Assembly (NCBI GenBank): GCA_028284765.1
Contig: JANQRA010000005.1
Location: 1-64,000 of the forward strand
Source: Acidimicrobiia bacterium
GTDB taxonomy: Bacteria; Actinomycetota; Acidimicrobiia; Spongiisociales; ZC4RG35
Reading direction: 5' to 3'
DNA: 64,000 nt
Positions 4,885 through 61,137 of this stretch are shown here, piece by piece. The position numbers were made by a program, and so were the translations under genes. The notes under the pieces are model-generated. The model ran no database searches and had not been told where the DNA came from. It saw only the letters and a program-made list of their open reading frames with translations. How positions within the stretch are numbered: position 1 is the stretch's first letter; every line of letters starts with the position of its first letter.

Positions 4885-4912
4885 ACCTCCCAAATCTCGG
4901 TACTCTCCGGGG

Positions 4913-5293: not shown

Positions 5294-6804
5294 ACCAGCA
5301 AGAGATATTCGAAGCGCTGGGGATTGCCGAACAGAACAGTGGCGTATATGCAGGTGAGTGGCTGGAGGCCACCGGGGACACCATCGATGTGACCAATCCT
5401 GCGACCGGCGAAGTCATGGCCTCAGTGACGCTGGCGTCGCTCGACGACTACGAGAAAGTCGTTGAGTCCTCCGTTGAGACATTCGAACGTTGGCGCACGC
5501 TCCCTGCTCCGAAGCGGGGCGAGTACGTCCGTCTGTTGGGAAATGCCTTGCGGGAGAACATCGACACATTGGGCGCACTCGTCACCCTGGAGATGGGCAA
5601 GATCCATGCGGAGGGTGTCGGCGAAGTTCAGGAGATGGTCGACATCTGTGACTTCGCAGTTGGCCTGTCCCGTCAGCTCTACGGGAACACCATGGCCTCC
5701 GAGCGCCCGAATCACCGTATGTACGAGCATTGGCACCCGTTGGGCCCGGTGGGTGTGATCTCGGCGTTCAACTTCCCGGTTGCCGTTTGGTCGTGGAATT
5801 CGACAATCGCAGCTGTCTGTGGCGACACCGTGCTTTGGAAGCCTTCCGAGGCCACCCCACTCACCGCGATCGCTGTCACGAAGATTGCTCAGGGGGTCAT
5901 GGCTGGGTCCGGTTTCGAAGGTCTCTTCAACCTCGCAATCGGCGACGGCAAGACCATCGGAAACGCGATGAACTCCGACATCCGGCTCCCGCTCATTTCT
6001 GCGACCGGCTCATGTGACATGGGGCGGATAGTCGGGCCGGCAGTGGCTCAGCGAATGGGCCGGACGATCCTCGAGTTGGGCGGTAACAACGCAGTGATCG
6101 TTATGGATGACGCCGATCTGGACCTCGCGGTGCGGGCGGCCCTGTTCTCTGCCGTTGGCACCTCCGGTCAGCGATGCACAACCCTTCGGCGTCTTCTCGT
6201 TCATCGGGCTGTAGCGGACAAGGTGGTCAATCGTCTTGCTGAGGCCTACGGCCAGGTGACGATTGGGGACCCTCTGGATGCTTCGACCTTGATGGGGCCC
6301 GTGGTCTCGGAGCGAGCCATCGATCAGATGATGAACTCACTTGAGATCGCTCGGGAGCAGGGTGGAGAGATGGTGACCGGTGGCAACCGACTCGATCGTG
6401 ATGGCTACTTCGTTGAGCCGACCATCGTCAAAGTTCCGAAGTCTGCATCGATCACACAGGACGAAACGTTTGCGCCGATCCTCTGGGTGATTGAGTTCGA
6501 CACACTCGATGAGGCGATTGAGATCCAGAACGGCGTGACCCAGGGGTTGTCCTCAGCGATATTCACGGAGTCGATGAAGAACGCCGAGCGCTTCCTCTCT
6601 GCCGCTGGCTCTGACTGCGGCATCGCCAACGTGAACATCGGCACCTCCGGAGCCGAGATCGGCGGTGCGTTTGGTGGCGAGAAGGAGACCGGGGGCGGCC
6701 GTGAGGCCGGCTCGGACGCGTGGAAGGCGTACATGCGCCGTCAGACGACGACCATCAACTGGGGCGACGATCTGCCCTTGGCCCAGGGAATCGAGTTCGG
6801 TTAG
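5290..6804 (+). CDS. ALDH7-family aldehyde dehydrogenase (aminoadipate semialdehyde / piperideine-6-carboxylate dehydrogenase type)
   Basis: 504-residue NAD(P)-dependent aldehyde dehydrogenase. General base Glu262 is in LELGGNN and catalytic Cys296 in GQRCTT. The blocks VGEVQEMVDICDFAVGLSRQ, SAFNFPVAVW and SGAEIGGAFGGEK, and the C-terminal end PLAQGIEF, are those of ALDH7A1/antiquitin-type enzymes, which oxidise alpha-aminoadipic semialdehyde in lysine catabolism. The usual FTGS nucleotide-site motif reads SATGSC here, a small deviation. It follows RidA in ATGA overlap. The substrate could differ, but subfamily membership looks firm. Confidence 0.92.
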   Translation: MNQQEIFEALGIAEQNSGVYAGEWLEATGDTIDVTNPATGEVMASVTLASLDDYEKVVESSVETFERWRTLPAPKRGEYVRLLGNALRENIDTLGALVTLEMGKIHAEGVGEVQEMVDICDFAVGLSRQLYGNTMASERPNHRMYEHWHPLGPVGVISAFNFPVAVWSWNSTIAAVCGDTVLWKPSEATPLTAIAVTKIAQGVMAGSGFEGLFNLAIGDGKTIGNAMNSDIRLPLISATGSCDMGRIVGPAVAQRMGRTILELGGNNAVIVMDDADLDLAVRAALFSAVGTSGQRCTTLRRLLVHRAVADKVVNRLAEAYGQVTIGDPLDASTLMGPVVSERAIDQMMNSLEIAREQGGEMVTGGNRLDRDGYFVEPTIVKVPKSASITQDETFAPILWVIEFDTLDEAIEIQNGVTQGLSSAIFTESMKNAERFLSAAGSDCGIANVNIGTSGAEIGGAFGGEKETGGGREAGSDAWKAYMRRQTTTINWGDDLPLAQGIEFG

Positions 6805-6814
6805 TCCAGATCGG

Positions 6815-7966
6815 TTACGCGTGGCCTAATGCCGCGTCGAGCGCGGCGATCAGGTCTTCAGCGTCTTCCAGGCCGACTGACAGGCGCACCAACCCGTCGG
6901 TTATGCCAGCAGCGATTCGCTCGTCGCGAGGAACGGCGGCATGGGTCATGGTCACCGGGTGTGTGATCAGCGATTCAACTGAGCCGAGATTCTCCGCCAG
7001 AGTCCATAGTTCGATGTTGTCCATGAGTCGTTTCCCGGTTTCGACTCCACCCTTGACTTCGAAGCAGACCATCGCGCCGTAGCCGCTGGCTTGTTTGGAG
7101 GAGAGATCGTGTTGAGGGTGGTTCGCCAAACCGGGGTAGTTGACGTAGTCGACCTTGCTGTGCGTCTGTAGAAACTCGGCGACGGCCATCGCATTTGCCG
7201 ATTGTGCGTCCATCCGCACGGACAGGGTCTTGGTTCCCTGGAGCGTGAGCCAGGCGACCATCGGGGACATGACTAGCCCTGCCGAGATCCGCGCAAACGC
7301 GATCTTCTCCTGGAGCTCTTTGTTGTTGACGACCACCGCACCGCCGAGGGTGGCGTTGTGGCCGTCGAGGAACTTGGTCGTGGAGTGAACGATGACATCG
7401 ACCCCAAGTTCAAAAGGGCGCTGGAAGTAGGGAGTGAGGAAGGTGTTGTCCGTGACGTGGATCACGCCGTTGGCCTTGCAGATCTCAGACACGGCTGCGA
7501 TGTCGGTGACCTTGAGCGTTGGGTTGGCGGGGCTCTCGGTGAAGACGAGCTTGGTGTTGTCTTTGGTGGCGTTGGCGACCGCCTCTGTTTCTGAAGCGTC
7601 CACGAACGTGACATCCACGCCGAGCTTGGAGAGGAACTGGTCAGCGAACCGGTAGGTGCCGCCGTACACGACGTCGGCAACAACGATGTGGTCACCCGCC
7701 TCCAGCAGAGCGAGGAACACGGCCACGGTGGCAGCCATCCCGGATCCGTATGCGGTGGTATCCACCCCGCCTTCGAGTGCGGTGAGTTTCTGCTCGAAGG
7801 CCCGTACGGTCGGATTGCCGGCCCGGGAATACGAGTACCCCTTCCCCATGTAGGTGTCGACCGACTCCTGGACAAAGGTCGTGGACTGGTGGATCGGTGT
7901 GAGGATGGCCCCGGTGGTCGGATCCGGTGTCACACCCTCGTGTACCTGCTTCGTGCGAAATCCCAT
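6815..7966 (-). CDS. PLP-dependent trans-sulfuration enzyme (cystathionine gamma-synthase/lyase type)
   Basis: 383-residue enzyme of the Cys/Met-metabolism PLP family. Schiff-base Lys198 is in HSTTKFLDGH, the PLP-phosphate motif YGSGMAA is at about 73-79, and the YSRAGNPT motif is near 45-53. This family interconverts homoserine esters, cystathionine, cysteine and homocysteine. Sequence alone does not separate MetB (synthase) from MetC/CGL (lyase), so no symbol is given. It is read leftward, ends 10 bases from the ALDH gene stop and starts at an ATG. The 43-bp hairpin repeat at 7990-8032 lies just upstream. Confidence 0.9.
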   Translation of the reverse strand: MGFRTKQVHEGVTPDPTTGAILTPIHQSTTFVQESVDTYMGKGYSYSRAGNPTVRAFEQKLTALEGGVDTTAYGSGMAATVAVFLALLEAGDHIVVADVVYGGTYRFADQFLSKLGVDVTFVDASETEAVANATKDNTKLVFTESPANPTLKVTDIAAVSEICKANGVIHVTDNTFLTPYFQRPFELGVDVIVHSTTKFLDGHNATLGGAVVVNNKELQEKIAFARISAGLVMSPMVAWLTLQGTKTLSVRMDAQSANAMAVAEFLQTHSKVDYVNYPGLANHPQHDLSSKQASGYGAMVCFEVKGGVETGKRLMDNIELWTLAENLGSVESLITHPVTMTHAAVPRDERIAAGITDGLVRLSVGLEDAEDLIAALDAALGHA

Positions 7967-15288: not shown

Positions 15289-15348
15289 TCCTTAGCTTTG
15301 CCCGCGGCTCTGGGAGGGCTGTAACGCTATCAAGGAGATAACGACGCA

Positions 15349-16452
15349 ATGAAAACGCGAACCTGGGCTGCGCTGATTGCCATTCTGGCGCTAGTCCTCG
15401 CGGCTTGTTCCCCTTCGGGTGGTGACGACACCACGACTACCGAAGGTGATGCCGGCGACACCACGACGACTGCCGGTTCCGATGGCGGAGACGACGGTGA
15501 CGACGGTGACGACATGGAGATGTCCCAGTGGGGCCTCCCGATCATCAGCCCGCTCGACGCAACACCCGGTGATATCGGAATCGCCGGTTCCTCCACAGTC
15601 TTCCCACTCTCGACAGCAGTGTTGACGCAGTGGATCGACGAAGGTGGCACCGAGTACACGATCGATTCGATTGGATCCGGTGGTGGTTTTGAACGGTTCT
15701 GTGTCGAGGGTGCATCTGACATCTCGAACGCAAGCCGTGCGATCAAGGATGAAGAGTTTGCGGACTGCACCGCGACGTGGGGTGACGAGCCGATCGAGAT
15801 TCGTGTCGGTTCTGATGCTCTTTCGCTGGTCATCAGTCCAGGAAACACCTTTGCCGGAGAGTTGACGCTCGAGCAGATTGCAACGGCGTACTCGCTTCCC
15901 GCCGGTTCAACTTGGGCTGACGTAGATCCTTCGTTCCCCGCGCATCCGCTGCAGACATTCTCACCGGGTGCTGACTCTGGAACGTTCGACTACTTCAACG
16001 AGGTTGTCTTCGACGAGGCAGACCCCTCGCCGATCCTTTCCTCCGGAGCCCAAATCGTGGGTGAAGATGACAACATCACCGTCGAAGGTGTTGCTGAGGA
16101 TGGCTGCACCGAGGGTGACACATCGACCACCTGCGCAATCGGATACTTCGGATATGCCTTCTTCCAGCAGAATGCCGACCGACTCTCCGTCGTGTCAGTC
16201 GACGCTGGTGAAGGCGACGGCCCAATCGTGCCGAACGACGAATCGGTGAACGAGGGCACGTACCCGATCGCTCGCCCGCTGTACATGTACACGGCACCGA
16301 GCGTCGTTGCCGACAAGCCTCAGGTGGCGGAGTTCATCGCCTACTACCTGAACAACGTCAACGACATCATCGGCGACGTGGGTTACTTCCCCGCTCCCGA
16401 CGACAAGCTCCAGGAAGCTGCAGACAACATCAAGGCTGCCGCTGGTTGGTAA
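15349..16452 (+). CDS. pstS: Phosphate ABC transporter substrate-binding lipoprotein
   Basis: 367-residue phosphate receptor anchored outside the membrane. Signal peptide with lipobox LVLAAC (lipidated Cys20), an acidic DTTTT/DGGDDGDD linker to about residue 60, then the periplasmic-binding fold. Phosphate-contact segments GIAGSSTVFPLS and SGGGFERFC, and the later GADSGTFDYF, are recognisable. First gene of pstSCAB-phoU. A strong hairpin follows its stop, typical for making more receptor than channel. Confidence 0.93.
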   Translation: MKTRTWAALIAILALVLAACSPSGGDDTTTTEGDAGDTTTTAGSDGGDDGDDGDDMEMSQWGLPIISPLDATPGDIGIAGSSTVFPLSTAVLTQWIDEGGTEYTIDSIGSGGGFERFCVEGASDISNASRAIKDEEFADCTATWGDEPIEIRVGSDALSLVISPGNTFAGELTLEQIATAYSLPAGSTWADVDPSFPAHPLQTFSPGADSGTFDYFNEVVFDEADPSPILSSGAQIVGEDDNITVEGVAEDGCTEGDTSTTCAIGYFGYAFFQQNADRLSVVSVDAGEGDGPIVPNDESVNEGTYPIARPLYMYTAPSVVADKPQVAEFIAYYLNNVNDIIGDVGYFPAPDDKLQEAADNIKAAAGW

Positions 16453-25622: not shown

Positions 25623-26432
25623 CTAGCCCAGGTCGTCGTAGGTCACGTCAAAGTCAGGACCGAACCACTTGCGACCTAAGTCGTCCATGGTTCCGTCGTC
25701 GATCATGGCCTGAATGGCCTCATTGACCGGGTCGACCAGCTCTGAGTCGAGCGGGAAGATGAAGCCAAGGGGATCGGACTGCAGCGCGTCGTCGATCGTC
25801 TCGATCTCTTCCGCGTTTTCACCGATGTATCCGAGGCCAGCGGCGTCGTCGATGATGACCACGTCGACATCGCCTGCAATCAGCGCCTGTACGGCCAGGG
25901 CAAACTGGTCGAACGCCTGAATGCGATCAGCTCCAACCAACTCCTCGGCCAGCTCGAAGTTGGTGGTACCAACCTGAGTTGCGACGACAGCATCAGAATT
26001 GATGACGTCGTCGGCGCTCGAGAAGCGATCGTCGCCTAGCTGCTTGATGAACTTCTGGGTGACTGTCATGTACGGATCAGAGAACGCAACGATTTCTTTG
26101 CGCTCGTCTGTGATGGAAATCCCATCAGCCGCAGTCATGATTTCGCCCTGTGCGACCTGATCGATCACGGCAGGCCAAGCAGCCTCCACGAACTCGGGCA
26201 CGCAATTGAGGCGCTCACAGATGTCATTCCATGCGTCGTAGTCCCAGCCCTGTCCTTCGGTCTCACCCGCAAGGATGTAGTTGAAGGGGAGGTAGGCGTT
26301 TTCGACACCGACGGTGACAGTCATTCCGTCGAGATCGGAGCCGTCGATGGTTCCGCCCGAATCATCACCACATGCGGCGACGACCAAGGCAAGTACCGCC
26401 ATGAGGGCAACGATTCTTGCTTTTTTGATCAT
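25623..26432 (-). CDS. Amino-acid ABC transporter substrate-binding lipoprotein
   Basis: 269-residue family-3 solute-binding lipoprotein: MIKKARIV start, hydrophobic core, lipobox VVAAC, then the binding fold with NAYLPFNY near its start and WDYDAWNDICERLN. Ligand is probably a polar amino acid. The start is the ATG at 26432, preceded by AGGAGG. The frame is open much further (to 27020), but that part is antisense to the divergent binding-protein gene and is not coding. It faces that gene across 160 bases. Confidence 0.9.
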   Translation of the reverse strand: MIKKARIVALMAVLALVVAACGDDSGGTIDGSDLDGMTVTVGVENAYLPFNYILAGETEGQGWDYDAWNDICERLNCVPEFVEAAWPAVIDQVAQGEIMTAADGISITDERKEIVAFSDPYMTVTQKFIKQLGDDRFSSADDVINSDAVVATQVGTTNFELAEELVGADRIQAFDQFALAVQALIAGDVDVVIIDDAAGLGYIGENAEEIETIDDALQSDPLGFIFPLDSELVDPVNEAIQAMIDDGTMDDLGRKWFGPDFDVTYDDLG

Positions 26433-26592
26433 TTCTAAGGGTCCTCCTATCGGAACCAAACCAGAAGGGTATTGGCGAAGACGCCAAGTTGCGAACCGGG
26501 TTTTGGGCGGCATCGCCAGGAAGGATATGGCTAGGGTCGATCGTCGAGCGCGCTGCGCTTTTGGCTGCGCGCACCCTAAATACGGAGGAGTA
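26433..26592. promoter_or_regulatory. Divergent promoter region between two amino-acid transport operons
   Basis: 160 bases serve two divergent operons. Ribosome-binding sites are clear on both sides: AGGAGG for the leftward gene (26443-26448) and GGAGGAG before the ATG at 26593. A perfect TTGGCG / CGCCAA palindrome with loop AAGA lies at 26472-26487, and could be a regulator site. I see no firm -10/-35 pairs. Confidence 0.5.
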
Positions 26593-27696
26593 ATGAAGAG
26601 AAGCAAGCTCTTGGTGGCCTTGGTCGCCCTGACGCTGGTCTTCGCAGCCTGTAGCTCAGAAGGTGGTGACGACACCACCACCACCGCCGGTGAAGACGGC
26701 GGAGGTGACGGAGGAGGCGACGGAGGCGGTTCCGCACTGCAGGAGGTCCTTGACCGCGGTGAAGTCAACTGCGGTACACGCGACGCCCTGACCGGTTTCG
26801 CAGTGCTTACCGAAGATGGCGAGCACGTCGGTTTTGACTCCGACTTCTGCCGAGTGATCGCTGCGGCCCTGTTCGGCGATGCCGAGGCCGTAAACCACGT
26901 CGATCTTGAAACGGCAGACCGGTTCACCGCATTGCAATCAGGCCAGATTGACGTCCTGGTGCGCAATACGACTTGGACCGCTAGCCGGGACGGCAGCGAA
27001 GGCGCCACGTTCTTGGCCACGACGTACTACGACGGTCAGGGAATGATGGTCCCAGCCGACGCTGGATACTCGAGCATCGAAGACATGGACGGCGTGATCG
27101 TCTGCGTCGCCAAGGGAACGACCACTGAGGGCAATGCGGCCGCCACGGCGGATCGTCTTGGTCTCGACTGGGAAGTTCGTCCCTTTGATGACAACGATCT
27201 GATCCAGGAAGCCTTCGGCGCTGGCCAGTGCGACGGATGGAGTGCAGACTCCAGTGCCCTCGTCGGTCTCCGTGCCGACCAGCCTGACGGTCCTGACAGT
27301 GTCTCGATCCTTCCTGAGGTCTTCTCGAAGGAGCCTCTCGGTCCTGCAGTTCTCGATGGCAACGACGCTCTCGCACAAGCTGTGAACTGGGCGATCTTCG
27401 CCACGATTCAGGCTGAGGAGTGGGGGATCACGTCTGCGAACGTCGATACGTTCTTGGACTCTGAGGATTCGAATATCAGGAAGTTCCTTGGAGCCTCGTT
27501 CACCGACGGTGACGGCAATGAGACGACACTCGATGCTGGCCTGGGCCTGCCCACTGATTTCGCCTATCAGGTGATCAGCCAAGTGGGCAACTACGGCGAG
27601 ATCTTCGAGGCGCATCTTGCGCCACTCGGTCTGGAGAGAGGCGTCAATGCCCTCTGGTTCGACGGTGGCCTGATGTACGCACCGCCTTATCGCTAA
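26593..27696 (+). CDS. General L-amino-acid ABC transporter substrate-binding lipoprotein (AapJ-type)
   Basis: 367-residue lipoprotein: MKRSKLL, lipobox VFAAC, DTTTT and Gly/Asp linker to about residue 50, then an AapJ/BztA-type fold. The blocks RGEVNCGTRDALTGF, GFDSDFCRVIAAALFGD, RFTALQSGQIDVLVRNTTWT and YYDGQGMMV follow the general amino-acid receptor pattern closely. First gene of a four-gene importer, with a 14-bp hairpin after the stop. Confidence 0.9.
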   Translation: MKRSKLLVALVALTLVFAACSSEGGDDTTTTAGEDGGGDGGGDGGGSALQEVLDRGEVNCGTRDALTGFAVLTEDGEHVGFDSDFCRVIAAALFGDAEAVNHVDLETADRFTALQSGQIDVLVRNTTWTASRDGSEGATFLATTYYDGQGMMVPADAGYSSIEDMDGVIVCVAKGTTTEGNAAATADRLGLDWEVRPFDDNDLIQEAFGAGQCDGWSADSSALVGLRADQPDGPDSVSILPEVFSKEPLGPAVLDGNDALAQAVNWAIFATIQAEEWGITSANVDTFLDSEDSNIRKFLGASFTDGDGNETTLDAGLGLPTDFAYQVISQVGNYGEIFEAHLAPLGLERGVNALWFDGGLMYAPPYR

Positions 27697-30947: not shown

Positions 30948-31049
30948 CCCCTTTCTGCGAACCCGGGGTTCATATCGCCATATTTGGCTGATATCACCCC
31001 GAGAACGTGACTCTGGATAGCGGGGTCGGCTATTTAGCCTTATGGACCG

Positions 31050-32141
31050 GTGTCCACCAGTTCCCTCCGTCGTGTCTCCATGTTCGCCGCTGCTGCCGCG
31101 CTGGTGCTGAGCGCCTGCAACGTCGTGCTTGGCGAGGAGGCCACTACCACGGTGCCCGACCCCACCACCACGACCACTTCTTCAACGACGACCACCTCGT
31201 CAACCACGACAACGTCGACATCAACGACCACGACAACAACCATCCCGCCAAAGCTCGAGCTGACAATCTCGGGTACCGGCGACGTCAACCTGGACCCCGA
31301 CTACATCTCAGCCTTTCGCTCCAATCCTTATTCCTACGCTTGGGACGAGGTGAGGGACATCCTGCTCGCGGATGACCTGACGGTCATCAATCTCGAGTGC
31401 GCGGCCTCCGATCTGGGTTCGCCCGAGCCCAAGGCTTTCACTTTCCGATGCCCGACTGAATCGTTGACCTCTCTTGCGCCCGGTGGTGTTGACGTCGCTT
31501 CTCTCGCCAACAACCACGGCGGAGACATGGGCAAAGAAGCCTTGCTCGACGGCCGGGTTCAGTTGGAAGCGGTTGGCGTAGCTCCGGTTGGTGTGGGTGC
31601 CAACACGACGGAGGCTGGCGAGCCAGCATTCTTCGATGTCAACGGATGGAGGGTCGCAGTTGTGGGCATGGGTGGGGTCAAACCTCACAACGGCTGGTTC
31701 GCCACCGAAGACAACCCGGGGATGCTCAACGGCGACGACATCCCAACGATGGTCGAAGCGATCGAATGGGCCGCCTCACAAGCTGACATCGTCGTCGCGA
31801 CCATCCATTGGGGTGTAGAGCTCGACCTGACTCCGAGAGCCACCGATATCGAGATCGCCGACGCTTTGATCGCGGCAGGCGCCGACGTGATCTTCGGTCA
31901 TCATCCTCATCGTCTCCAGCCGTATGAGGTGAGAGATGGCGCGGCAGTGTTCTGGTCTCTTGGCAACTTCGTCTGGCCTACGCTGTCCACTCTTGGCAGG
32001 ACAACAGGTGTAGCCCAGGCAGTGATCCAACCGGACGGGACTATCGATGCGTGTTTGATCCCTGCTTTCATCGAACAGCCAGGTCAGCCGTGGCCGACCG
32101 GTGAACGCGAATGCGTGTCTGACACGTTGGATACTCCGTGA
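31050..32141 (+). CDS. CapA/PgsA-like metallophosphatase-fold lipoprotein
   Basis: 363-residue exported protein: signal peptide with lipobox VLSAC, a 45-residue Thr/Ser linker, then a CapA-type domain. Family motifs include GTGDVNLD, INLECA, SLANNHGGDMG, TIHWGVELDLTP, VIFGHHPHRLQPYE and VFWSLGNFVWP. CapA proteins take part in poly-gamma-glutamate or capsule handling and belong to the calcineurin-like fold, but many bacterial members are uncharacterised. The GTG at 31050 gives Arg residues before the hydrophobic core; ATG at 31080 would remove them. Stop overlaps the next gene (GTGA). Confidence 0.85.
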   Translation: MSTSSLRRVSMFAAAAALVLSACNVVLGEEATTTVPDPTTTTTSSTTTTSSTTTTSTSTTTTTTIPPKLELTISGTGDVNLDPDYISAFRSNPYSYAWDEVRDILLADDLTVINLECAASDLGSPEPKAFTFRCPTESLTSLAPGGVDVASLANNHGGDMGKEALLDGRVQLEAVGVAPVGVGANTTEAGEPAFFDVNGWRVAVVGMGGVKPHNGWFATEDNPGMLNGDDIPTMVEAIEWAASQADIVVATIHWGVELDLTPRATDIEIADALIAAGADVIFGHHPHRLQPYEVRDGAAVFWSLGNFVWPTLSTLGRTTGVAQAVIQPDGTIDACLIPAFIEQPGQPWPTGERECVSDTLDTP

Positions 32142-36974: not shown

Positions 36975-37835
36975 GTGTTTGGAGGTGTCTTCAACAATCG
37001 GGGCATGGCATCAGGATGGTTTGGCGGTGGGGTCTCCACGACTTCCGGGTACGTGGCAATAGGTGTGTTGGGGACCTTGGGGGTGGCTGTCGTCGCACTG
37101 GGCCTCGCACTCACCAACAGTGAAGACGCCCCGGAGGCGATCGATTGCAAGTACGAAGCCGTTGAGGTCATAAGTGAGGCAACTGTCGATCTACCGGACG
37201 AACCCCAGGCTCCCGAAGAAGGCGGACCACCCACGTGGACACCGGAACAGTTCCTCAACAATCACTACGAGAATTGTGTTGCCGAAGGGGAGACAAAGGT
37301 CATAGTCAATGGTCTCCCTGATGTTTCCGGTGTGTACTCCACGACCGGAGGCAACGTGTCTCTCGAAGGTTGGTCGCTGGGCGACAACGAGTTCTTCGTG
37401 AACGTTGGTCGCTGCTATCTCGATGATTCACATGTCTTCACGACCAAGGCGATCCAAGTGTCAGACACAGTGAGCGAATTGGCTGAGGACGGCTCCGACG
37501 CCGTTGTGGGAGGCGAGTTCATCACAGTGCACTTCGGCATGACGGGTGAAGGTGGACCATTTGCCGCCGTCACCAGGGAGGAGCTTCTGTCGATCGAAAC
37601 GACGGAGGGGGACGGAGCTGTGCTTCCCTCGATGGGCCTATCCCGGGTCACCCATAACTACTCGCCCCACGTGGACGTCACGATGGTTCCCGGTGTCTTT
37701 GATCCCGAGACATTCAAAGGTGCGTTTGCCTTCGGGTCGCAGGCATACAACGACCGAGACTTCCAGCCCTGGACGGATGCCCCGTGGAACGGCACCCCGG
37801 ACTATCTCTTCGAGATCCTGGTCTTCTGCAAGTAG
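36975..37835 (+). CDS. Membrane-anchored secreted protein, function unknown
   Basis: 286 residues with one N-terminal membrane helix (GYVAIGVLGTLGVAVVALGLAL, about 26-47) and an extracytoplasmic acidic domain with four cysteines (in IDCKYEA, ENCVAEG, GRCYLDD and the final VFCK), which may form two disulfides. No recognised family. GTG at 36975 is taken as start; ATG at 37005 would still include the helix. It is followed 62 bases later by an LpqH-like lipoprotein gene on the same strand and may share its transcript. Confidence 0.65.
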   Translation: MFGGVFNNRGMASGWFGGGVSTTSGYVAIGVLGTLGVAVVALGLALTNSEDAPEAIDCKYEAVEVISEATVDLPDEPQAPEEGGPPTWTPEQFLNNHYENCVAEGETKVIVNGLPDVSGVYSTTGGNVSLEGWSLGDNEFFVNVGRCYLDDSHVFTTKAIQVSDTVSELAEDGSDAVVGGEFITVHFGMTGEGGPFAAVTREELLSIETTEGDGAVLPSMGLSRVTHNYSPHVDVTMVPGVFDPETFKGAFAFGSQAYNDRDFQPWTDAPWNGTPDYLFEILVFCK

Positions 37836-37897
37836 AGCGTTTAGAGGACGTTTGGTCTCGCCGGATAGATCTGGTCGCAACAGAAAGAGGAGTTGTG

Positions 37898-38500
37898 ATG
37901 GAGAAGAGATTCACCGTGTACGTTGTGTTGGCGCTTTTGCTCGGAGCGTGTGGAGGTCAGGCAGTTGAAGACCCGGAAGTCCAATCGACCGCTCGGCAGG
38001 AGCAGCCTGAGCCGACTTCGACGACAGTCTCGGCCGAGGCCCCGACCTCTCAGGTCGCCAGCCAACCTGCCGAAGGCGACGGCACCGTCACGATCGGTTC
38101 CCAGACGTGGACGTTCGCTCTCAACGGCAACGCCAGCGAGATCTGCATGCCGAACACTGGTGGGTCCTTCTTCGTCAACATGTTCGGGGAGGCCGACGAC
38201 GGCACCCAGATTGCTCTAAGCATTCAGACGCTTGGCGACGGAAACGCAATCGTCCAAGCTGGGGCTGTTCAGATCACGGGTGAGTTGTGGAAGGCCGACA
38301 GCAATGTCTACGACACCGTTGCGAACGTGGAGGGCTTGCCAGAGGGCATCGGAGCCGAAGTGTCTGTTGAGGGGAAATCCATTTCAGGTACCGGCGTGTT
38401 TTACGAAGATCGAGCCCTAGCGGAGGCGCGAGCTGGCGGATCGAACTACGACGCGGGCGTGTTGGAAGGCACCTTCTCGGCCACTTGTCCGGATGGTTAG
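37898..38500 (+). CDS. LpqH-like (19-kDa antigen type) lipoprotein
   Basis: 200-residue predicted lipoprotein: MEKRFTVYVVLALLLGACGG, then a Ser/Thr/Pro/Glu linker to about 60. The C-terminal domain starts with GTVTIGSQTWTF and an early cysteine (EICMPN), and ends with GTGVFYEDRA ... EGTFSATC. The order VTI-G, Cys, SGTxxF, GxFxxxC recalls mycobacterial LpqH-type antigens, and the same pattern recurs in three other genes of this window. Ribosome-binding site AGAGGAG. Its stop overlaps the FAD-oxidase ATG by eight bases. The family match is my reading of the pattern, not a search result. Confidence 0.7.
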   Translation: MEKRFTVYVVLALLLGACGGQAVEDPEVQSTARQEQPEPTSTTVSAEAPTSQVASQPAEGDGTVTIGSQTWTFALNGNASEICMPNTGGSFFVNMFGEADDGTQIALSIQTLGDGNAIVQAGAVQITGELWKADSNVYDTVANVEGLPEGIGAEVSVEGKSISGTGVFYEDRALAEARAGGSNYDAGVLEGTFSATCPDG

Positions 38501-48316: not shown

Positions 48317-48994
48317 TCACAAGCTGCAGTCGACCACCTCCACGATGTCGAGATCAAATGTCACGTCCAAGGGACCACCCTCTCCTTCGACCGTGAAGCT
48401 GCCGGAAAGGTTGTTTCCGTTGATCTCCAGAGGAGCCGCGTCCATCTCGACGCCCTCATGTGCGAGATCCATTGCGAGAGACCTGGGAACGCTTCCGATT
48501 TCGTCGACGTACCAAGTCCCGTCAGGTCCCGTGACAAATGGTCCGGCTTCGAAGTTGCCGAACGACCCCGAGTCGGTTCGAAGCTGGAGCTCAGGCCGGA
48601 ATTGCACGTAGGTGTACGCGTCGGCATCCGGCGGCACACCGATCACATCCTTGTTCGAGATCTCGAGAAACAGTGCTTCGAGACCACCGTCCAACTACAC
48701 GTTGATGTCGAGATCACCGGGTTGCGGATCGAACATGTCGTCGATCATGCAGTTTCCGACCCACGCCGGTTCGATGGTTTCGCCGTTGATAGTCACAGTT
48801 CCCGAGCCTCCGGGCGGCAGTCCCGAAGACTGAGAACCACCTTCGTTGGCTCCGTCGTCCGAGTCGTCGGCCTGGTTCGTGGCAGGGGGGTTGGTGCCCG
48901 ACTGAGTCTCGTCACCTCCGGTGTCGTCACCGGACCCACACCCGGCCGCTATCAACACCATCAGCAGTAGCAGGACCACCAACCTGAATCTCAT
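48317..48994 (-). pseudogene. LpqH-like lipoprotein gene interrupted by an in-frame TAG
   Basis: From the ATG at 48994 (preceded by GGAGGA) the frame encodes MRFRLVVLLLLMVLIAAGCG, a lipobox, a Gln/Asp/Gly-rich linker and GSGTVTINGETIEP with the early Cys. It is then cut by TAG at 48697-48695. The same frame continues without shift for 125 codons, to SGSFTVEGEGGPLDV and a final VVDCSL. A single base change therefore separates it from a complete LpqH-like protein. It could be a recent pseudogene, a sequencing error or a read-through codon. The upstream part alone would give a 99-residue lipoprotein. Confidence 0.75.
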
Positions 48995-49143
48995 TCGGCT
49001 TCCTCCAGCGCGTCGACCAAGGAGCGTTGTCGCCCCGCACTGAACGTACGGGATGACGGTTCGGGCGCCCGTACTCAATCCCAGCCGCAGACCTACTCAT
49101 TTCCGTACGCCGGGGACTTCGTTGCCGAGTAGCTTGAGAAGCA

Positions 49144-51642
49144 ATGGCGGCAACGTTGGTAGGGCGAGAGAACGATCTGCGTCGTGCCCGGAAGGTTCTC
49201 GACGACAGGGGGGCGGTTCTCCTTCATGGGCCTTCCGGAATCGGCAAGACGGCGATCTGTGACGTGCTCGCCGACGAGTGGCTCTCGAACCAACAGCGTG
49301 TGGTGGAAATCCGCGGTACTGAGGGTTTGCGCAACGTTCCGTTTGGGGCACTGACACTATCGTTGCCGTTGTCACTGGAAGGCTCAGACTCCGACATCCT
49401 TGCTCGCGTTCGGGCGCTACTAGCTGACGGAGAGGATCAGGTTCTCGTCGTTGTGGATGACACCCACCTGCTCGACCCGCAGAGTGCAGCTGTTGTCAGC
49501 GGGCTGGCCCAAGTGTCGGATGTTGCCTTGGCCATGGCGGTTACCTCTGGCGAGCGAGTCTCCTCCGACATCACTGCCCTTTGGGCAAGATGGCCTGAGT
49601 GCCGCATTGAGGTCGGACCACTCGCTCGAGCTGAGGTGCAGGAGCTCGTGAAGAACCTCACCGGGGTGATGCTCGATACCCGTATGACCGAAGTCGTCGA
49701 GAGTCTCACCCTCGGATATCCGCTCTACGTAACTGCTGTTGCTTCAGAGCTGGCGCATCTGCAGGTGGTTGAAGGCCCAGATCTTGAGAGCTGGATCCAC
49801 GCCCTGTCAGGCTCCACCGATCGTCTAGTCCGATTGATGGAGCGTCGTCTCGGGCGGCTGGACCGGGAGGACAGGCGTCTCTTCGACCTCATCGCATTCG
49901 CCGAAGACCTTCCGCTCGCCATCTTCTCCGATCAGTCCTCGATTGCATCGCTGGAATCCCTGAACGGTGGTGGGCTCGTCAGAGTCACAGCCGATCGGGT
50001 TCAAGTGGCCCACCCGCTTCTTGGTTCAGTTGCCCGCAGCACCCTGACCACCGAGGGGAGGAGAAGCTGCGCTCGATTGGCAATCAGTCTTCTCGACGGT
50101 CAGACCGAGGACGGCGATGTTGCCGCCGTTGTGCGTAAGGCACTCAATGTTGGCGTTGTCCCAGACGTCGAGCATCTGCGCGCCGCCGCAGAGGTGGCTT
50201 TCAATTCACGGGACTACGGCAGTGTGTCGCGAATAACCGGTGTTGTCCCCGAGGATCCGCAGTTGAGAACACTGCGCGCACGCGCAGGACGCTTTCTCGG
50301 AGAAGTCCCCGACACTGACATCCCTCTCGGCCTCGACGACGATGGCCTCACCGAATACCTGAGTGGCACATCACATGCCATCGCCTATGTCGAACGTCGT
50401 TTCACTGACGCCATCGATTACTTGCGAGATGGCATGGGCTTGGTCCAAGGCCAACAAAACCGGAATCGTCTAGCCCTCGAGTTGATGATCCTCTCTGCCC
50501 TGGTCGGAGACCTGGACGCGATGCTGGGAGCGTCACGAATTGCAGCTGACAATTCAGACCCCGGGTCCCGACTACTTGCCCTCTCGAGCACACAACTGGC
50601 CGAAGCGCTGACGCTGTCTACCGCCTCAGCGGAAGACACTTATGCCGAGGGCCGCGTTCTGGTCGACGAAGGGGCCACCCAGGGAATGCTCGAAGAGCAA
50701 CTCGCGATGAGTCGAGTCATGGTCCATTTGGCCGAGGGTCGATTCATGTCCGCACGCGCCGGATGCGAGTCGTTCGGAGAGAAGACCCTCGCCGGGTCGT
50801 GGTTGACGGTGGAATCGGTTCTAGCCGACGCCTGGTTGCCCTCAGCGGAGGCTCTTCGACTGGCGGAGGCGGCAGTCGCATCTCTCGAGGAGTTCGATCC
50901 CCTGGCGAACCTTGCGCAGGCGAGATACGTAGCGGATATGCGAAGAGCCCAGCTGGGCCTGAGCCCAGCGTCGACCGATCACGCGACACACGAAGAGGGG
51001 GTAGCCCGGATCGATCAGCTCATGTCTCAGCGAGCGGATGCGTGGTGGGCTTTGGCAGACGGTGACTCGACCGCCGCGAAACGTCTGGTGGAGGTCGGTC
51101 GAGAGGGTGTTGCGATGGGGCATAGGTTCTGGGGTCTGTGTGCCTTCATCGATGCGATCCGTCTTGGAGCAGGCGAAGAGGTTGTTGGAGACATCGAGCA
51201 CCTCGTGATCACCCGGGGTGCTGGTCTTGCCGTTCTCGCTGCGCGCGCAGCCCGTGCGTCCATGCCTGAAGAGCGGTGGGCCTTGTCCCGAGACTGGTGG
51301 TCGGCTGGTGCTGACACATACGCGATCGAGGCTGGGCTCCGGAACGCCGAATCAGGCGACATCGACTGCCAGTTAATGGTGCACTTGATGGCGCGTCGTG
51401 GCGCAAAACCGCTCATCGGAGACCTCAGCTCGATGGAAAGCCCTTTGTCTGATCGACAGATTGAGACCGTGGAGGGTGTGCTTCGAGGGGCAACCAACGA
51501 GTCACTGGCCGAGGAGTTGTTCGTCTCGCGCCGGACGATCGAAAACCACCTTCACAATGCCTATCAGGCTTTGAGTGTTCGCGGAGGAAGAGAGGAACTG
51601 CGAGATCGATTCGGTTGGGTCTACCGCGAATCGGGCACCTAG
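49144..51642 (+). CDS. LuxR-family ATPase regulator (LAL/MalT-like)
   Basis: 832-residue signal-transduction ATPase: N-terminal AAA domain with Walker A HGPSGIGKTA (about 29-36) and Walker B VLVVVDDTHLLDP, a long helical sensor middle, and a C-terminal LuxR helix-turn-helix (LSDRQIETVEGVLRGATNESLAEELFVSRRTIENHLHNAY). LAL regulators respond to small ligands. It is divergent from the interrupted LpqH-like gene and converges, through a shared CTAG stop, on a DUF3179 relic. Its targets may include the adjacent lipoprotein genes; this is inferred from position. Confidence 0.9.
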   Translation: MAATLVGRENDLRRARKVLDDRGAVLLHGPSGIGKTAICDVLADEWLSNQQRVVEIRGTEGLRNVPFGALTLSLPLSLEGSDSDILARVRALLADGEDQVLVVVDDTHLLDPQSAAVVSGLAQVSDVALAMAVTSGERVSSDITALWARWPECRIEVGPLARAEVQELVKNLTGVMLDTRMTEVVESLTLGYPLYVTAVASELAHLQVVEGPDLESWIHALSGSTDRLVRLMERRLGRLDREDRRLFDLIAFAEDLPLAIFSDQSSIASLESLNGGGLVRVTADRVQVAHPLLGSVARSTLTTEGRRSCARLAISLLDGQTEDGDVAAVVRKALNVGVVPDVEHLRAAAEVAFNSRDYGSVSRITGVVPEDPQLRTLRARAGRFLGEVPDTDIPLGLDDDGLTEYLSGTSHAIAYVERRFTDAIDYLRDGMGLVQGQQNRNRLALELMILSALVGDLDAMLGASRIAADNSDPGSRLLALSSTQLAEALTLSTASAEDTYAEGRVLVDEGATQGMLEEQLAMSRVMVHLAEGRFMSARAGCESFGEKTLAGSWLTVESVLADAWLPSAEALRLAEAAVASLEEFDPLANLAQARYVADMRRAQLGLSPASTDHATHEEGVARIDQLMSQRADAWWALADGDSTAAKRLVEVGREGVAMGHRFWGLCAFIDAIRLGAGEEVVGDIEHLVITRGAGLAVLAARAARASMPEERWALSRDWWSAGADTYAIEAGLRNAESGDIDCQLMVHLMARRGAKPLIGDLSSMESPLSDRQIETVEGVLRGATNESLAEELFVSRRTIENHLHNAYQALSVRGGREELRDRFGWVYRESGT

Positions 51643-51921: not shown

Positions 51922-52284
51922 TTGAACCCGTTGCGGGCCGGTGCCAGCCCTCAGAGGACCAGCTTCGACTTGTCCAGACTGCTTCGGCGGCTGGTCGTTT
52001 TGGTATTTGCCCTGATCCAGGCGGTCCTCGTTGCTCGAATCTTGCTCGATCTGGGTCTGTTCTCGACGGAGAGCGGCTTTGGTGAGTTCGTTGTCTCGAT
52101 GAGCGACTTCCTGGCGGCGCCGGTACAGGGTATCGGCAGTGGTATCAGCAACATGTTCGGCGGGCCGGGCCTCGAGAGCATCGCCGGAGAAGGGTTCAAT
52201 GCCGTGATGCTGGTGGCCTTGGCTGGTTGGTCGGTGGTTGAAGGCCTGGTGATGCGAGTCGTCCGCAAGTTCGACCAAGTGTAA
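51922..52284 (+). CDS. YggT-like small membrane protein
   Basis: About 120 residues with two membrane segments: LVVLVFALIQAVLVARILLDL and AVMLVALAGWSVVEGLVM, joined by a stretch with SDFLAAPVQGIGSGI that recalls the PLLxPIR loop of YggT proteins. YggT proteins are linked to osmotic tolerance or cell division, but remain poorly defined. TTG at 51922 is the first start; later TTG codons are also possible. It ends four bases before the 862-residue lipoprotein gene, so the two are probably co-transcribed. Confidence 0.6.
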   Translation: MNPLRAGASPQRTSFDLSRLLRRLVVLVFALIQAVLVARILLDLGLFSTESGFGEFVVSMSDFLAAPVQGIGSGISNMFGGPGLESIAGEGFNAVMLVALAGWSVVEGLVMRVVRKFDQV

Positions 52285-52288
52285 GAAC

Positions 52289-54877
52289 GTGATGCTGGCG
52301 ACTTCCCAAATGAGCCATCGCCGACGCGGGCCAACCTATCGGACCGCTGGCACTCCACTTGTAATGATGGCCCTGATCTTCCTGCTCAGTGCGTGTGGTG
52401 GAGACCAAGCGGGAGAAACCCCACAGGAATCCACCGACGTCGAAACGCGGCCAGACATAACGCCGTCCTGCGTGGAACTCGACTATCCATGTGATTGGAG
52501 AGACGCGGACCGGGAGGTGCTGATTGACACCCTCAAGCTGCTCGATGAGGTGGCGGATGCGTTGGCAACGGGCGAGTCCGTAGAAGACGTCGCGGCCCGG
52601 CTGCAGTCCACCGCAGGCGTTGTCTCAGTCAACTGGGCGGAGGAAGGGATCATATTCAGAAGGGACGGAGGCCTTCCTGTAACAGCCTTCACCGAATCGG
52701 CCTCACCTGTCTACACGTCATCCGATGCCACTGAACCAGAGACTTCGGCGGCTGCGTTCTCTCCGGACGCGATTCGAGCTTCATTGCCCAACGAAGCTGC
52801 AAGTCCGGCGATTCTGGCGCAGTCGGCTACAGAGTCCTCCTATGAGCCGGCCAGGGCACCCGACATTCGACCCAGACAAGTCATGGTGCTCAGTCCCACA
52901 CGCTCTGCGGACCTGGCCGCAGCGGTAGCTGCCAGCAGTGGTGCTGGAGTGCTCCCTCCGTCCGCTCCTCCCAGTCAAACTCGAGACACGTTTTCAGCAA
53001 GCGAAGACTTCGAAGTGTTGGACCTGCCCGATGAACAGGCCCATCCGGGGCATTGGGCAAACATGGGGGCGTTTGACGCTGTTGTGATCGAAACGCACGG
53101 CGCGTACTACGAATGTCGGGACGACGGTTCGGTCTGTGGGCTCTTCCTCGCTGGACCGCTCGCCGGGCCCTACCTCGAGGCTCTGGGCTTGACGGAGGAA
53201 GATGTCGCGAGCGAGTTCGAACCCGGCGCAACGGATCCTCAAGTCGCCTATCAGGACTTCGGTGGATTTACGTTCGCTCGGCTCTCCATCGACGGACGAA
53301 TCCACATTTCCTTCGACGACGACTTCTTCCACCAACTGCCGGGCAGCGGCGTAGGAAGGAACATCGTCATCGTCAACGCCTGCAAGATGGGTGAGGAACA
53401 GGTCTCGACTACAGCTCTTGCCAGCAATATCGCAGGGTCGCGAGGCGCTGTCTTCTCTTGGGACAGAGGGATTCCCCGAGTGTCCTCTGACGCCGTTACA
53501 GCGACCCTCGCCGAATTGCTCATCGAAGGTGCTGACCCTGATGCCGCGATGGAACAGATGCGACAAGATGGCCTCAACACAGCGCTCTATCGCGGTATCG
53601 AAGCCCGGTTGCTCTTGTATCGCGAGCCCGGTGTGAGCTTGCGAGCGCGCGATGTTGTCGTCACTCACGTTGATGGTGTAGTCGCCGAGCCTGGCGCGAC
53701 AATCTCGGCCAAAGGAAGGCCCGAGGATGGTCAGAATGACCGGATCGGCGGTGTTGAGATCCGTATCGACGGTGTCAACTGGAACGATCGCGACTCGACC
53801 ACCGTCGAAATCAAGGTGGATGGTCAGCCCATCAAGGTGGTCCAAGACGGCAACGAAACGACATCGCCTGCTCTCAGCGATCGCACCGAAAGAGGATCGA
53901 CATCAGGCTCGTGGGAGAGGCATGTAATCGATCTAGACAACGCAATTCTTCCGTTCGATCTGACGAGGGAGGACGTCACGCAAGGCCGAGGTCATGTGTG
54001 GGAGGTGATCGTCCAGGGATCAACAGGCGGACCTTCGATACACAAGATCGAGCCCGTCATCTTCCGCCTGGGTTCCGTCCGCATACTCAATCCCAACAAC
54101 ACCGCACCGTTGGAGCCCAACGATCAGGTATTCATTGAAGGTGAGGCGGGTGACGGTGAATCTGAGACCTACCAACTCATCGTGCGCGTTGAGCACCTCG
54201 ACGAATCGGCCGATTCGGCCGCCTACAAAGTCGAGGTTTCGTTTGATGGCAATGACGAAGTCTTGGCTCTCACCGAGTTTGAGAGTCTCGGAGATGGGGC
54301 CTATCGATATACCAGAGAGGTCGACCTGGGGGATCTCCAGATGCGAGAGAATCCGGTTCCGGTCTCAGCGAAGTTGACGCTGGCTTCGGACGGTGAGGTC
54401 GAGATGGTTGACGAAGTTGACGCGACGCCGATTGTGCTCGTACTGGAAGAGAGCGGCCCGGGTGAAGCGACGATCATTGTTGGAGGATCCGCATGGGAGT
54501 TTGAGCTGACCGAACTCTTGGGCGCCTCTTGCCGGCTCGACGAGAGTTCACTTCTGGTATCGGGAGCGGTAGACGGAGACCAGGAAGGCGTCACCTTCTC
54601 GGCTGACGTGCGTTCCGACGGCAGTGGGTACCTGGACGTCAACGACTATCCGAACGATCAGTTTTGGATGGCCGCCGCTGATCGAGAGAACATGACTGTC
54701 CTTCATCTCGTGCCGGACGGGCAGAGCCAAATCGACTCGATTTCATTTGACGGCCGTGTCGTCAGCGGAGAGGCGACGTTCATCGATGCGAGGGCGTTCG
54801 AGGACGCATGGCTCACCAATGGGGCCTATCCGGCCCCGGTCACGGGTTCTTTTGAAATCCGCTGCCCGGCCCCGTAG
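52289..54877 (+). CDS. Lipoprotein with caspase-fold-like (CHAT/clostripain-type) domain and LpqH-like C-terminus
   Basis: 862 residues. A basic N-terminus and hydrophobic core end in lipobox LLSAC (lipidated Cys36). Residues about 60-190 are helical and acidic. Residues about 195-440 look like a clan-CD/caspase-fold unit: strand RQVMVLSP, DAVVIETHG with candidate catalytic His270, and NIVIVNACKMG with candidate Cys365. The SRGAVFSWDRGIPRVSSDAV helix region then resembles the end of CHAT domains. Beta-rich Ig-like segments follow (about 450-720). The last 138 residues (725-862, GEATIIVGGSAWEF ... SGEATFID ... GSFEIRC) repeat the LpqH-like pattern of the small lipoproteins nearby. I know no family with this order. 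The predicted site is extracytoplasmic, unusual for CHAT-type proteases. Catalysis is inferred from motifs only. Confidence 0.7.
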   Translation: MMLATSQMSHRRRGPTYRTAGTPLVMMALIFLLSACGGDQAGETPQESTDVETRPDITPSCVELDYPCDWRDADREVLIDTLKLLDEVADALATGESVEDVAARLQSTAGVVSVNWAEEGIIFRRDGGLPVTAFTESASPVYTSSDATEPETSAAAFSPDAIRASLPNEAASPAILAQSATESSYEPARAPDIRPRQVMVLSPTRSADLAAAVAASSGAGVLPPSAPPSQTRDTFSASEDFEVLDLPDEQAHPGHWANMGAFDAVVIETHGAYYECRDDGSVCGLFLAGPLAGPYLEALGLTEEDVASEFEPGATDPQVAYQDFGGFTFARLSIDGRIHISFDDDFFHQLPGSGVGRNIVIVNACKMGEEQVSTTALASNIAGSRGAVFSWDRGIPRVSSDAVTATLAELLIEGADPDAAMEQMRQDGLNTALYRGIEARLLLYREPGVSLRARDVVVTHVDGVVAEPGATISAKGRPEDGQNDRIGGVEIRIDGVNWNDRDSTTVEIKVDGQPIKVVQDGNETTSPALSDRTERGSTSGSWERHVIDLDNAILPFDLTREDVTQGRGHVWEVIVQGSTGGPSIHKIEPVIFRLGSVRILNPNNTAPLEPNDQVFIEGEAGDGESETYQLIVRVEHLDESADSAAYKVEVSFDGNDEVLALTEFESLGDGAYRYTREVDLGDLQMRENPVPVSAKLTLASDGEVEMVDEVDATPIVLVLEESGPGEATIIVGGSAWEFELTELLGASCRLDESSLLVSGAVDGDQEGVTFSADVRSDGSGYLDVNDYPNDQFWMAAADRENMTVLHLVPDGQSQIDSISFDGRVVSGEATFIDARAFEDAWLTNGAYPAPVTGSFEIRCPAP

Positions 54878-58673: not shown

Positions 58674-58745
58674 TTGAGCGAACAGGGTGCGCGGTAGATG
58701 GGTAGGTTTTGAATTCCGAACGCCCGGATGCATGAGAGGAGTCCG

Positions 58746-59369
58746 ATGAAACGCCTACTAGTTCTACTGATGCTGTTGTCCCTCCTGGTCGCTGCGTGCG
58801 GTGGCGGAGACACTGAAGACGGTGGAGACGACAACGCCGATCAACCCACCGCGACCCAGGCGCCATCCGGGGACGACAGTGACGACGCGCCACCGACAAC
58901 TTCAGATGTGAACGACGACGAGGACGACTCGGAACCTGAGGGCGAAGGCCCGTCCACAGCGACCGTCACGATCGGTGACATGACCTACGAATTCTCATCG
59001 GAGGGCGCAATCGTCGCACAGTGTCTCCCCGACCTGTTCGGAATCATGTCCGTTCAGCTGCCCATGGCAGATGGTGGTGATGGCTCCATTGAATTGGCTG
59101 CCCTGCATGAAGGCACTGACCCAGCGGTCGTTGGGCAAATCAACGCGATAACAGTGAAAATCGGCGATGACGACTGGGTGGCCGATCCTGAAGACGTCAG
59201 AATCGCCGGCAATGCCGACTACGAGGGCCTGAGCCAGGTTGATTCGGTAACCGTGAGCGGCAGCAATGTGACGGGTACAGCGACATTCGTCAACACATCC
59301 AGTTTCGACGGTGTCGAAAGTGCCACCGGGACGTTCGAAGCCACGTGTGGTGAGGAGCGGACCTCCTAG
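58746..59369 (+). CDS. LpqH-like lipoprotein
   Basis: 207-residue lipoprotein: MKRLLVLLMLLSLLVAACGG, an acidic Asp/Glu/Thr/Pro linker to about 75, then STATVTIGDMTYEF, an early Cys (VAQCLPD), SGSNVTGTATFVNTSSF and the end GTFEATCGEE. Same pattern as the genes at 37898, 48317 and the C-terminus of 52289. AGAGGAG ribosome-binding site lies before the ATG at 58746. Its TAG stop shares CTAG with the convergent AlkC-like gene. Confidence 0.75.
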   Translation: MKRLLVLLMLLSLLVAACGGGDTEDGGDDNADQPTATQAPSGDDSDDAPPTTSDVNDDEDDSEPEGEGPSTATVTIGDMTYEFSSEGAIVAQCLPDLFGIMSVQLPMADGGDGSIELAALHEGTDPAVVGQINAITVKIGDDDWVADPEDVRIAGNADYEGLSQVDSVTVSGSNVTGTATFVNTSSFDGVESATGTFEATCGEERTS

Positions 59370-60506: not shown

Positions 60507-61001
60507 TCAGCCCCGGGAGGCGTCCGTCTCCACGTGCCAGACCATCGTGACGCTGGTATCTGTCACTTCAACAGACTTGAGCGTGCTGTCCGGGTCCTTC
60601 TTGCCTTCCTTCTCCAGTTCCCTGGCCAAGGCGTTGTTCCAGAACTCGACGATCCATTCAGGCATGGGCTCGCCATTCCATGTGGCGTCGTAGATGTCCA
60701 CAGTCAGGAACCCCTCGCTGGACACCCCGAGAGTGGCCTCGAACGTCACATCGTTGATCTCACCCGTGTCCTCATCGGGGCCCGTGCCGTCGATGGCGAT
60801 GTATCCGTCGTGGAAATTCACATCCAGCTTCTCAGTCGATGGGTCTTCGATCTGCGTCTGGATGGCTTCCTGAAGCTTCTGCTCGTCGATCACTGACTCC
60901 ACCGTCAGCGATCCGTCGGGGTTCGCTTCGATGTCAATAGTGCAAGCCGCTGTGAGGAGCCCGAAGGCTACAACCGTGGCTACAAGTGTCATTCTCCGCA
61001 T
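60507..61001 (-). CDS. Small lipoprotein, function unknown
   Basis: 164-residue predicted lipoprotein: MRRMTLVATVVAFGLLTAAC with a lipobox, then a domain of mixed strands and helix (DGSLTVESVIDEQKLQEAIQ ... VEFWNNALARELEKEG ... VTMVWHVETD). The overall feel is that of DUF3153-type lipoproteins, but I cannot assign it. A very strong AGGAGGTG ribosome-binding site lies before the ATG at 61001. It is 19 bases from the AlkC-like gene on the same strand and may be co-transcribed with it. Confidence 0.7.
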   Translation of the reverse strand: MRRMTLVATVVAFGLLTAACTIDIEANPDGSLTVESVIDEQKLQEAIQTQIEDPSTEKLDVNFHDGYIAIDGTGPDEDTGEINDVTFEATLGVSSEGFLTVDIYDATWNGEPMPEWIVEFWNNALARELEKEGKKDPDSTLKSVEVTDTSVTMVWHVETDASRG

Positions 61002-61086
61002 TTGTTCACCTCCTGGGGTGTGTCTCTTGCCCTCAAGTCGACCGAAGATGACGCAAAGTCGGTAGTGGCTGCTGCCACGATTGGCC

Positions 61087-61137
61087 CATGACAGATGTCA
61101 TGAGTGTGTTGACATCGAGCACGTCGACCCCCAGCCT
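61087..61137 (+). promoter_or_regulatory. Promoter and 7-2-7 palindrome of the NarL-type kinase operon
   Basis: CATGACA-GA-TGTCATG (61087-61102) is a perfect 7-2-7 palindrome, the geometry used by NarL-type regulators. Downstream lie TTGACA (61109-61114) and, 17 bases on, CAGCCT (61132-61137), with the ATG at 61147 about 10 bases further. This supports the start at 61147 and suggests control by the operon's own response regulator. Confidence 0.5.

Follow-up and report, generated by a model that had tools for sequence, protein, structure and literature searches.

A predicted surface lipoprotein of an Acidimicrobiia bacterium with a CHAT-like His/Cys domain

CHAT domains are normally found inside bacterial cells, and those CHAT proteases whose function is established, Craspase for instance, serve as switches in the cytosol that cut a partner upon a signal. 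A gene of an Acidimicrobiia bacterium raises the question of whether such a domain may also operate outside the membrane. The gene lies in a stretch of 64,000 nucleotides analysed here as a whole (contig JANQRA010000005.1, assembly GCA_028284765.1; hereafter the window). A sequence-only reading had proposed that its product is an exported lipoprotein joining a caspase-fold-like His/Cys domain to Ig-like segments and an LpqH-like terminal domain. Taken alone, the 862-residue protein gives no significant family match in Pfam, NCBIfam, PHROGs or PADLOC. Its map, as drawn from the results described below, is the following.

52289-54877, +: whole gene, lipoprotein of 862 residues with a CHAT-like domain (open frame; 172.5 bits with a profile built without this protein)
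52289-52396, +: type II signal peptide, residues 1-36, lipobox LSAC, predicted lipidated Cys36 (sequence)
52469-52690, +: N-terminal module, residues 61-134, with CX6C (Cys61/Cys68) and FRRDGG (CX6C in 10/10 members with an intact N-terminus)
52691-52870, +: Ala/Ser/Pro-rich linker, residues 135-194 (little conserved in the alignment)
52874-53659, +: CHAT-like clan-CD domain, residues 196-457 (family profile; fold from a homologous domain)
53096-53098, +: codon of His270 (ETHG), predicted catalytic His (conserved in 11/11)
53114-53137, +: Cys276 to Cys283, probable disulfide loop right after His270 (Cys276 in 11/11; a second Cys follows in all members)
53381-53383, +: codon of Cys365 (NAC in NACKMG), predicted catalytic Cys (11/11; sole unpaired Cys of the mature protein in the cysteine inventory)
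53660-54058, +: first Ig-like/beta module, about residues 458-590 (to residue 513 within the family profile, remainder by inspection)
54077-54403, +: second copy of the Ig-like module, about residues 597-705 (second profile match at 597-655, 19.6 bits; E 3.0e-5 in another search)
54431-54874, +: C-terminal beta domain of the small-lipoprotein type, residues 715-862, with Cys748 and Cys859 (phmmer matches; alignment)

The frame starts with GTG, an ATG at residue 2 or 8 being equally possible. The lipobox, LSAC36, follows a hydrophobic stretch, and the N-terminus is that expected of an SPase II lipoprotein, with lipidation predicted.

A rare family with an invariant His and Cys

Ten divergent relatives, seven from actinobacteria and three from Burkholderiales, were reached by chained searches in which a weak match from the same order (L009) led to two strong relatives and these to further ones. 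A pattern scan of named genomes yielded Piscinibacter caeni and P. defluvii (L035, L036) as well as the metagenome-assembled genome Acidimicrobiaceae bacterium NAT239 (L037); G899 is the third Burkholderiales member. With the window protein, the family thus comprises 11 proteins spanning two phyla, and identity to the window protein over the core is 21-28%. A profile made from nine relatives, the window protein being left out, matches that protein with 172.5 bits (E 7e-49 for a search space of a million sequences), covering residues 61-513 from end to end with the His and the Cys in register. No match to the family profile was obtained with 2000 shuffles of the window protein. Some candidates were discarded along the way: L006/L008 (G041) is an antisense chance match with an internal stop, L024 is a different lipoprotein caught through the similarity of its lipoprotein signal, and the matches of L023 and L025 lie mostly in the signal and linker region.

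His270, Gly271, Cys276, Cys365, Arg452, Arg454 and Asp511-Gly512 are among the residues invariant in all 11 sequences, and Cys61 and Cys68 are invariant in the ten members with an intact N-terminus. The lipobox, the His270 of ETHG and the Cys365 of NACKMG, all picked out in the sequence-only reading, are confirmed. Since they are identical in 10/10 relatives at only 21-28% core identity, the positions of His270 and Cys365 are not due to chance. The distance between these residues is 95 in the window protein and ranges from 65 to 125 across the family.

The cysteine content follows a simple rule. Two pairs recur in each member, the CX6C pair and one that closely follows HG; beside them stand the predicted catalytic Cys and at most two more pairs. 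To these are added the lipobox Cys, absent from G503 and from G125, which is truncated at a contig end, and sometimes an extra Cys in the signal peptide. After subtraction of the anchor Cys, the signal-peptide Cys and the obvious pairs, every member retains a single Cys, the predicted catalytic one. A single unpaired Cys per member fits a cysteine enzyme residing in an oxidising extracytoplasmic compartment. In the window protein, we infer disulfides Cys61-Cys68, Cys276-Cys283 and Cys748-Cys859 from this pattern.

Searches outside these relatives gave little. A search of the genome of the window protein returned only the protein itself, and the genomes sampled in its own family returned matches to the C-terminal domain and no full-length relative. 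No relatives were found in plasmids, nor were near relatives of the window protein found in the viral and genome contigs scanned with it. The phage search gave one weak partial match (E 2e-3): positions 3872-4210 of MT835937.1, a bacteriophage record that has no annotation and derives from human fecal samples, show 31% identity to part of the CHAT-like domain of G256. The family was found in 2/138 genomes of the order, 3/296 of the class and 3/326 across the phylum. It occurs in 4/121 genomes of the family of G138, all of one genus, in 2/66 of the class of G503 and in 2/191 of the family of Piscinibacter. It is thus a rare and apparently unnamed family of actinobacteria and one proteobacterial group. 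The deep branching order is left unsettled by its tree, in which the window protein and G747 form long branches; horizontal spread between Actinobacteria and Burkholderiales would be plausible.

Placement of the domain within clan CD

Because the single-sequence model of the window protein was unusable (pLDDT 38.6), its fold is taken to be that of a homologue, to which the protein is tied by its profile match. The domain of a Piscinibacter homologue, modelled with AlphaFold2 from four sequences, reached a pLDDT of 76.7 and a pTM of 0.79. Foldseek gave SAVED-CHAT as the best match of this model (E 1.1e-5), with caspases and DdvA also below 1e-3. VIA-align returned Z scores of 14.8 for SAVED-CHAT, 14.5 for DdvA, 12.1 for the gingipain RgpB and 11.7 for Craspase TPR-CHAT, and of about 11 for legumain, separase, metacaspase and caspases. 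With Z values of 14.8-10.7 over 155-184 residues, the homologue's domain has the caspase-type fold of clan CD. His68 stands right after strand 62-65 of the model and Cys146 right after strand 140-143; in clan CD, the His/Cys dyad stands at the ends of equivalent strands (PMC4357240). The two checks attached to the sequence-only reading, caspase-like topology and conservation of the dyad among homologues, thus came out in its favor, and the proposal of a lipoprotein that is exported and bears a CHAT-like His/Cys domain of clan CD is supported by the lipobox, the family profile and the fold of the homologue.

Comparisons of sequences point to the same neighborhood. The Pfam CHAT model (PF12770) matches 6/10 core sequences, with a best E of 1.5e-7. 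The full G138 protein exceeds the gathering score (32.8 against 24 bits), two others nearly reach it, and the window protein itself has no match. As only one relative passes the cut-off and the window protein does not, the term CHAT-like family is used here and the protein is not filed as a CHAT member. Against the PDB, the only significant match of the family profile is SAVED-CHAT 8tl0 (E 0.0022), aligned at the Cys of NAC. Comparison by hhalign with CHAT stretches of related genomes gave a P of 5.4e-6 and a probability of 86%, aligned on the Cys motif, whereas five column-shuffled controls gave 0.1% or less. In five Pfam CHAT stretches of related genomes (L045, L046, L047, L048, L049), the HG motif is present and no AC motif is recognisable; to judge from their sequences, these may possibly be pseudo-enzymes. 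The window protein is among the most divergent members of the family and is without the conserved aromatic stretch after LSP. Taken together, the model and the profile place the family as CHAT-like, its closest fold and profile within clan CD being SAVED-CHAT.

The family shares with CHAT proteins (PF12770; SAVED-CHAT 8tl0; Craspase TPR-CHAT/Csx29) the clan-CD fold and the order HG...(N/S)AC. It differs from them by its signal peptide and lipobox, its Cys pairs, its CX6C N-terminal module and a longer loop between His and Cys (65-125 residues), whereas no lipobox pattern is seen in the CHAT proteins sampled, several of which look rich in TPRs. DdvA, a transmembrane anti-sigma factor (PDB 8rw5, 8rot) whose residues 800-991 align over the whole model, likewise holds a CHAT-like fold within a membrane protein; in DdvA, however, this fold is part of a large anti-sigma factor. 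The gingipain RgpB (C25), iotapain and other C11 enzymes, and legumain (C13) are exported cysteine peptidases with the same fold. Nevertheless, no family member matched the Pfam models of C11, C13, C14 or C25 (hmmscan, ten core members to E 5 and eight full proteins to E 1). The comparison with peptidase families that had been proposed therefore favored CHAT, matched by relatives, and left C11, C14 and C25 unmatched.

In a survey of C14, 30 of 671 prokaryotic caspase homologues were predicted to be extracellular and 98 to be membrane-associated (PMC3501461). The exported metacaspases predicted earlier are Peptidase_C14 proteins, a model that the present family does not match. A search of the open-licence literature found no description of an exported or lipoprotein CHAT family. 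From sequence and model, the protein would be a CHAT-like clan-CD protein relocated to the cell surface.

Anchors, accessory domains and neighboring genes

The lipobox is found in 9/11 members, including the window protein, and stands at the same place in 8/9 relatives with an intact N-terminus. G503 (L017:6153-9179) has no lipid anchor; its CHAT-like module is joined instead to three cell-wall-binding repeats of the CWB2 type (E 8.7e-53). Judging from these sequences, one anchor is swapped for another within the family. The C-termini also vary: two relatives carry a Lipocalin_4 signal below the cut-off, and the small-lipoprotein domain that closes the window protein was not seen in other members. 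Considering these different anchors and C-termini, the constant part of the family consists of the N-terminal module, the CHAT-like domain and one Ig-like module. The Ig-like segments noticed in the sequence alone are borne out as a repeated module, the family profile covering residues 61-513 and its last 60 or so positions matching again at 597-655. Among the Pfam models, neither Ig nor TIG gives a significant match to the 862-residue protein (TIG E 0.19).

With residues 701-862 as query, phmmer found the C-terminal domain at two other places in the window:

58728-59369, +: small lipoprotein with the same C-terminal domain (phmmer match at 58713-59366, E 2.6e-6)
37703-38497, +: another small lipoprotein with the same domain, open frame (E 1.1e-5)

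The same residues also match small lipoproteins of four related genomes, L002-L005 (E 1e-5 to 5e-9; 4.7e-9 for L002). All these small lipoproteins have in common with residues 715-862 their C-terminal domain, but they are about 200 residues long and devoid of a protease domain. The kinship with nearby small lipoproteins, suggested earlier, is therefore retained. The label LpqH-like is not, since the Pfam model of LpqH, the mycobacterial 19-kDa antigen, matched none of seven domain members at E<=10. Another small lipoprotein gene (MRFRLVVLLLLMVLIAAGC...), at 48317-49078 on the minus strand, is interrupted by an in-frame TAG, its remainder being open; either the gene is broken or the sequence contains an error. 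Several more open frames whose signal peptides are of the lipobox type lie in the window at 15325-16449, 26296-27693, 31038-32138 and 60510-61097.

Just upstream of the 862-residue gene lies a candidate for the YggT-like membrane protein that had been proposed as a co-transcribed partner:

51922-52284, +: YggT-like membrane open frame with two helices (Pfam YGGT 15.5 bits, below the cut-off of 27; E 0.023)

This frame ends four bases before the GTG, a gap that makes co-transcription plausible in this genome. A role as functional partner is not supported: the YggT match is below the cut-off, no YggT-like neighbor was recognised beside the relatives, and their flanking genes vary between loci with no conserved neighborhood, so that no partner is indicated. 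A STAND-like, ATPase-type transcriptional regulator also adjoins the gene (49144-51642, +, LuxR type). In Piscinibacter, such regulators, of a winged-helix type by inspection, occur at 4734-7358 (-) in L035 and upstream of 7392 in L036. As a partner, this regulator was set aside, having been recognised beside no relatives other than those of Piscinibacter.

Peptidase, receptor or ligase

Which activity may be assigned to the protein? In Craspase, the His/Cys pair of the CHAT domain, H585 and C627, is that of a regulated protease and C627 mutants are inactive (PMC9729208). The His/Cys domain of the present family is probably an active peptidase. Considering the sequences and the homologue model, it appears likely, with room for doubt, that the protein is a cysteine peptidase that acts outside the cytoplasm, tethered to the membrane, with a CHAT-like domain of clan CD as its core. 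Against this stand the missing Pfam CHAT match of the window protein, its divergence and the loss of the aromatic stretch after LSP, the borrowing of its fold from a homologue, its His-Cys spacing of 95 compared with 42 in Craspase (PMC9729208), and several cytosolic control CHAT stretches that lack a recognisable AC motif, from which it follows that inactive CHAT-like proteins may exist.

The last observation would also suit a CHAT-like fold retained without catalysis, for binding or as a receptor, in an envelope adhesin or sensor where the His and Cys would be structural. Fusion to beta modules and to a lipoprotein-type domain agrees with this idea, and pseudo-enzymes do occur among caspase-like proteins, as illustrated by pseudo-orthocaspases (PMC6426788). 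Such a role is nonetheless unlikely, because the His and the Cys are identical in 11/11 members at 21-28% identity to the window protein while nearly all else varies, the Cys at the catalytic position is never paired, and a structural function leaves the retention of both members of the dyad unexplained. Sequence cannot decide between protease and receptor, but the strict conservation of the dyad speaks for catalysis. A different enzyme on the same fold, such as a transpeptidase or ligase attaching proteins to the envelope, may also be imagined, as this fold also occurs in peptide asparaginyl ligases and in the GPI-transamidase subunit, which are among the structural matches, and the protein is predicted to be envelope-anchored. 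The nearest structures by Z are nonetheless SAVED-CHAT and DdvA rather than ligases, and neither a conserved partner nor a sorting-signal gene was recognised in the neighborhood, which makes such an activity improbable. Finally, the gene could be a degenerate or misassembled, non-functional fusion in which a CHAT lipoprotein and a duplicated small lipoprotein were joined by chance. The window copy is indeed divergent, its C-terminal domain was not seen in other members, and a neighboring small lipoprotein gene is broken. Yet the 862 codons are fully open, and all invariant residues and Cys pairs are kept; a chance fusion is accordingly very improbable.

If the protein is a tethered peptidase, Sec export and acylation of Cys36 would place it at the cytoplasmic membrane, on its outer side. 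In the oxidising envelope, the disulfides would then close, with Cys365 remaining a free nucleophile beside His270. The N-terminal CX6C module, together with its flexible linker, may possibly serve as a pro-domain; the beta modules may either extend the enzyme outward or attach to the substrate or the wall. Because there is one copy per genome and the family is rare, a local envelope protein would be a likelier substrate than those of nutritional proteolysis. A more ambitious proposal, which we hold tentatively and judge somewhat more likely to be wrong than right, is that of an unrecognised clan-CD family of envelope-tethered CHAT-like zymogens. These would combine a disulfide-closed active-site loop, a CX6C pro-domain, interchangeable anchors (lipid or CWB2) and C-terminal sensing domains, and would carry out regulated proteolysis outside the membrane with a sparse spread over Actinobacteria and Burkholderiales.

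Since no Pfam or NCBIfam model catches the window protein, members of this family easily stay hypothetical proteins; the invariant residues and the cysteine rule offer a simple route to find more of them. If the peptidase assignment is true, a lipid-anchored, disulfide-stabilised CHAT would move a cytosolic cleavage switch to the cell surface. It would also extend the caspase-type chemistry of the bacterial envelope beyond gingipains, clostripains and the predicted exported metacaspases.
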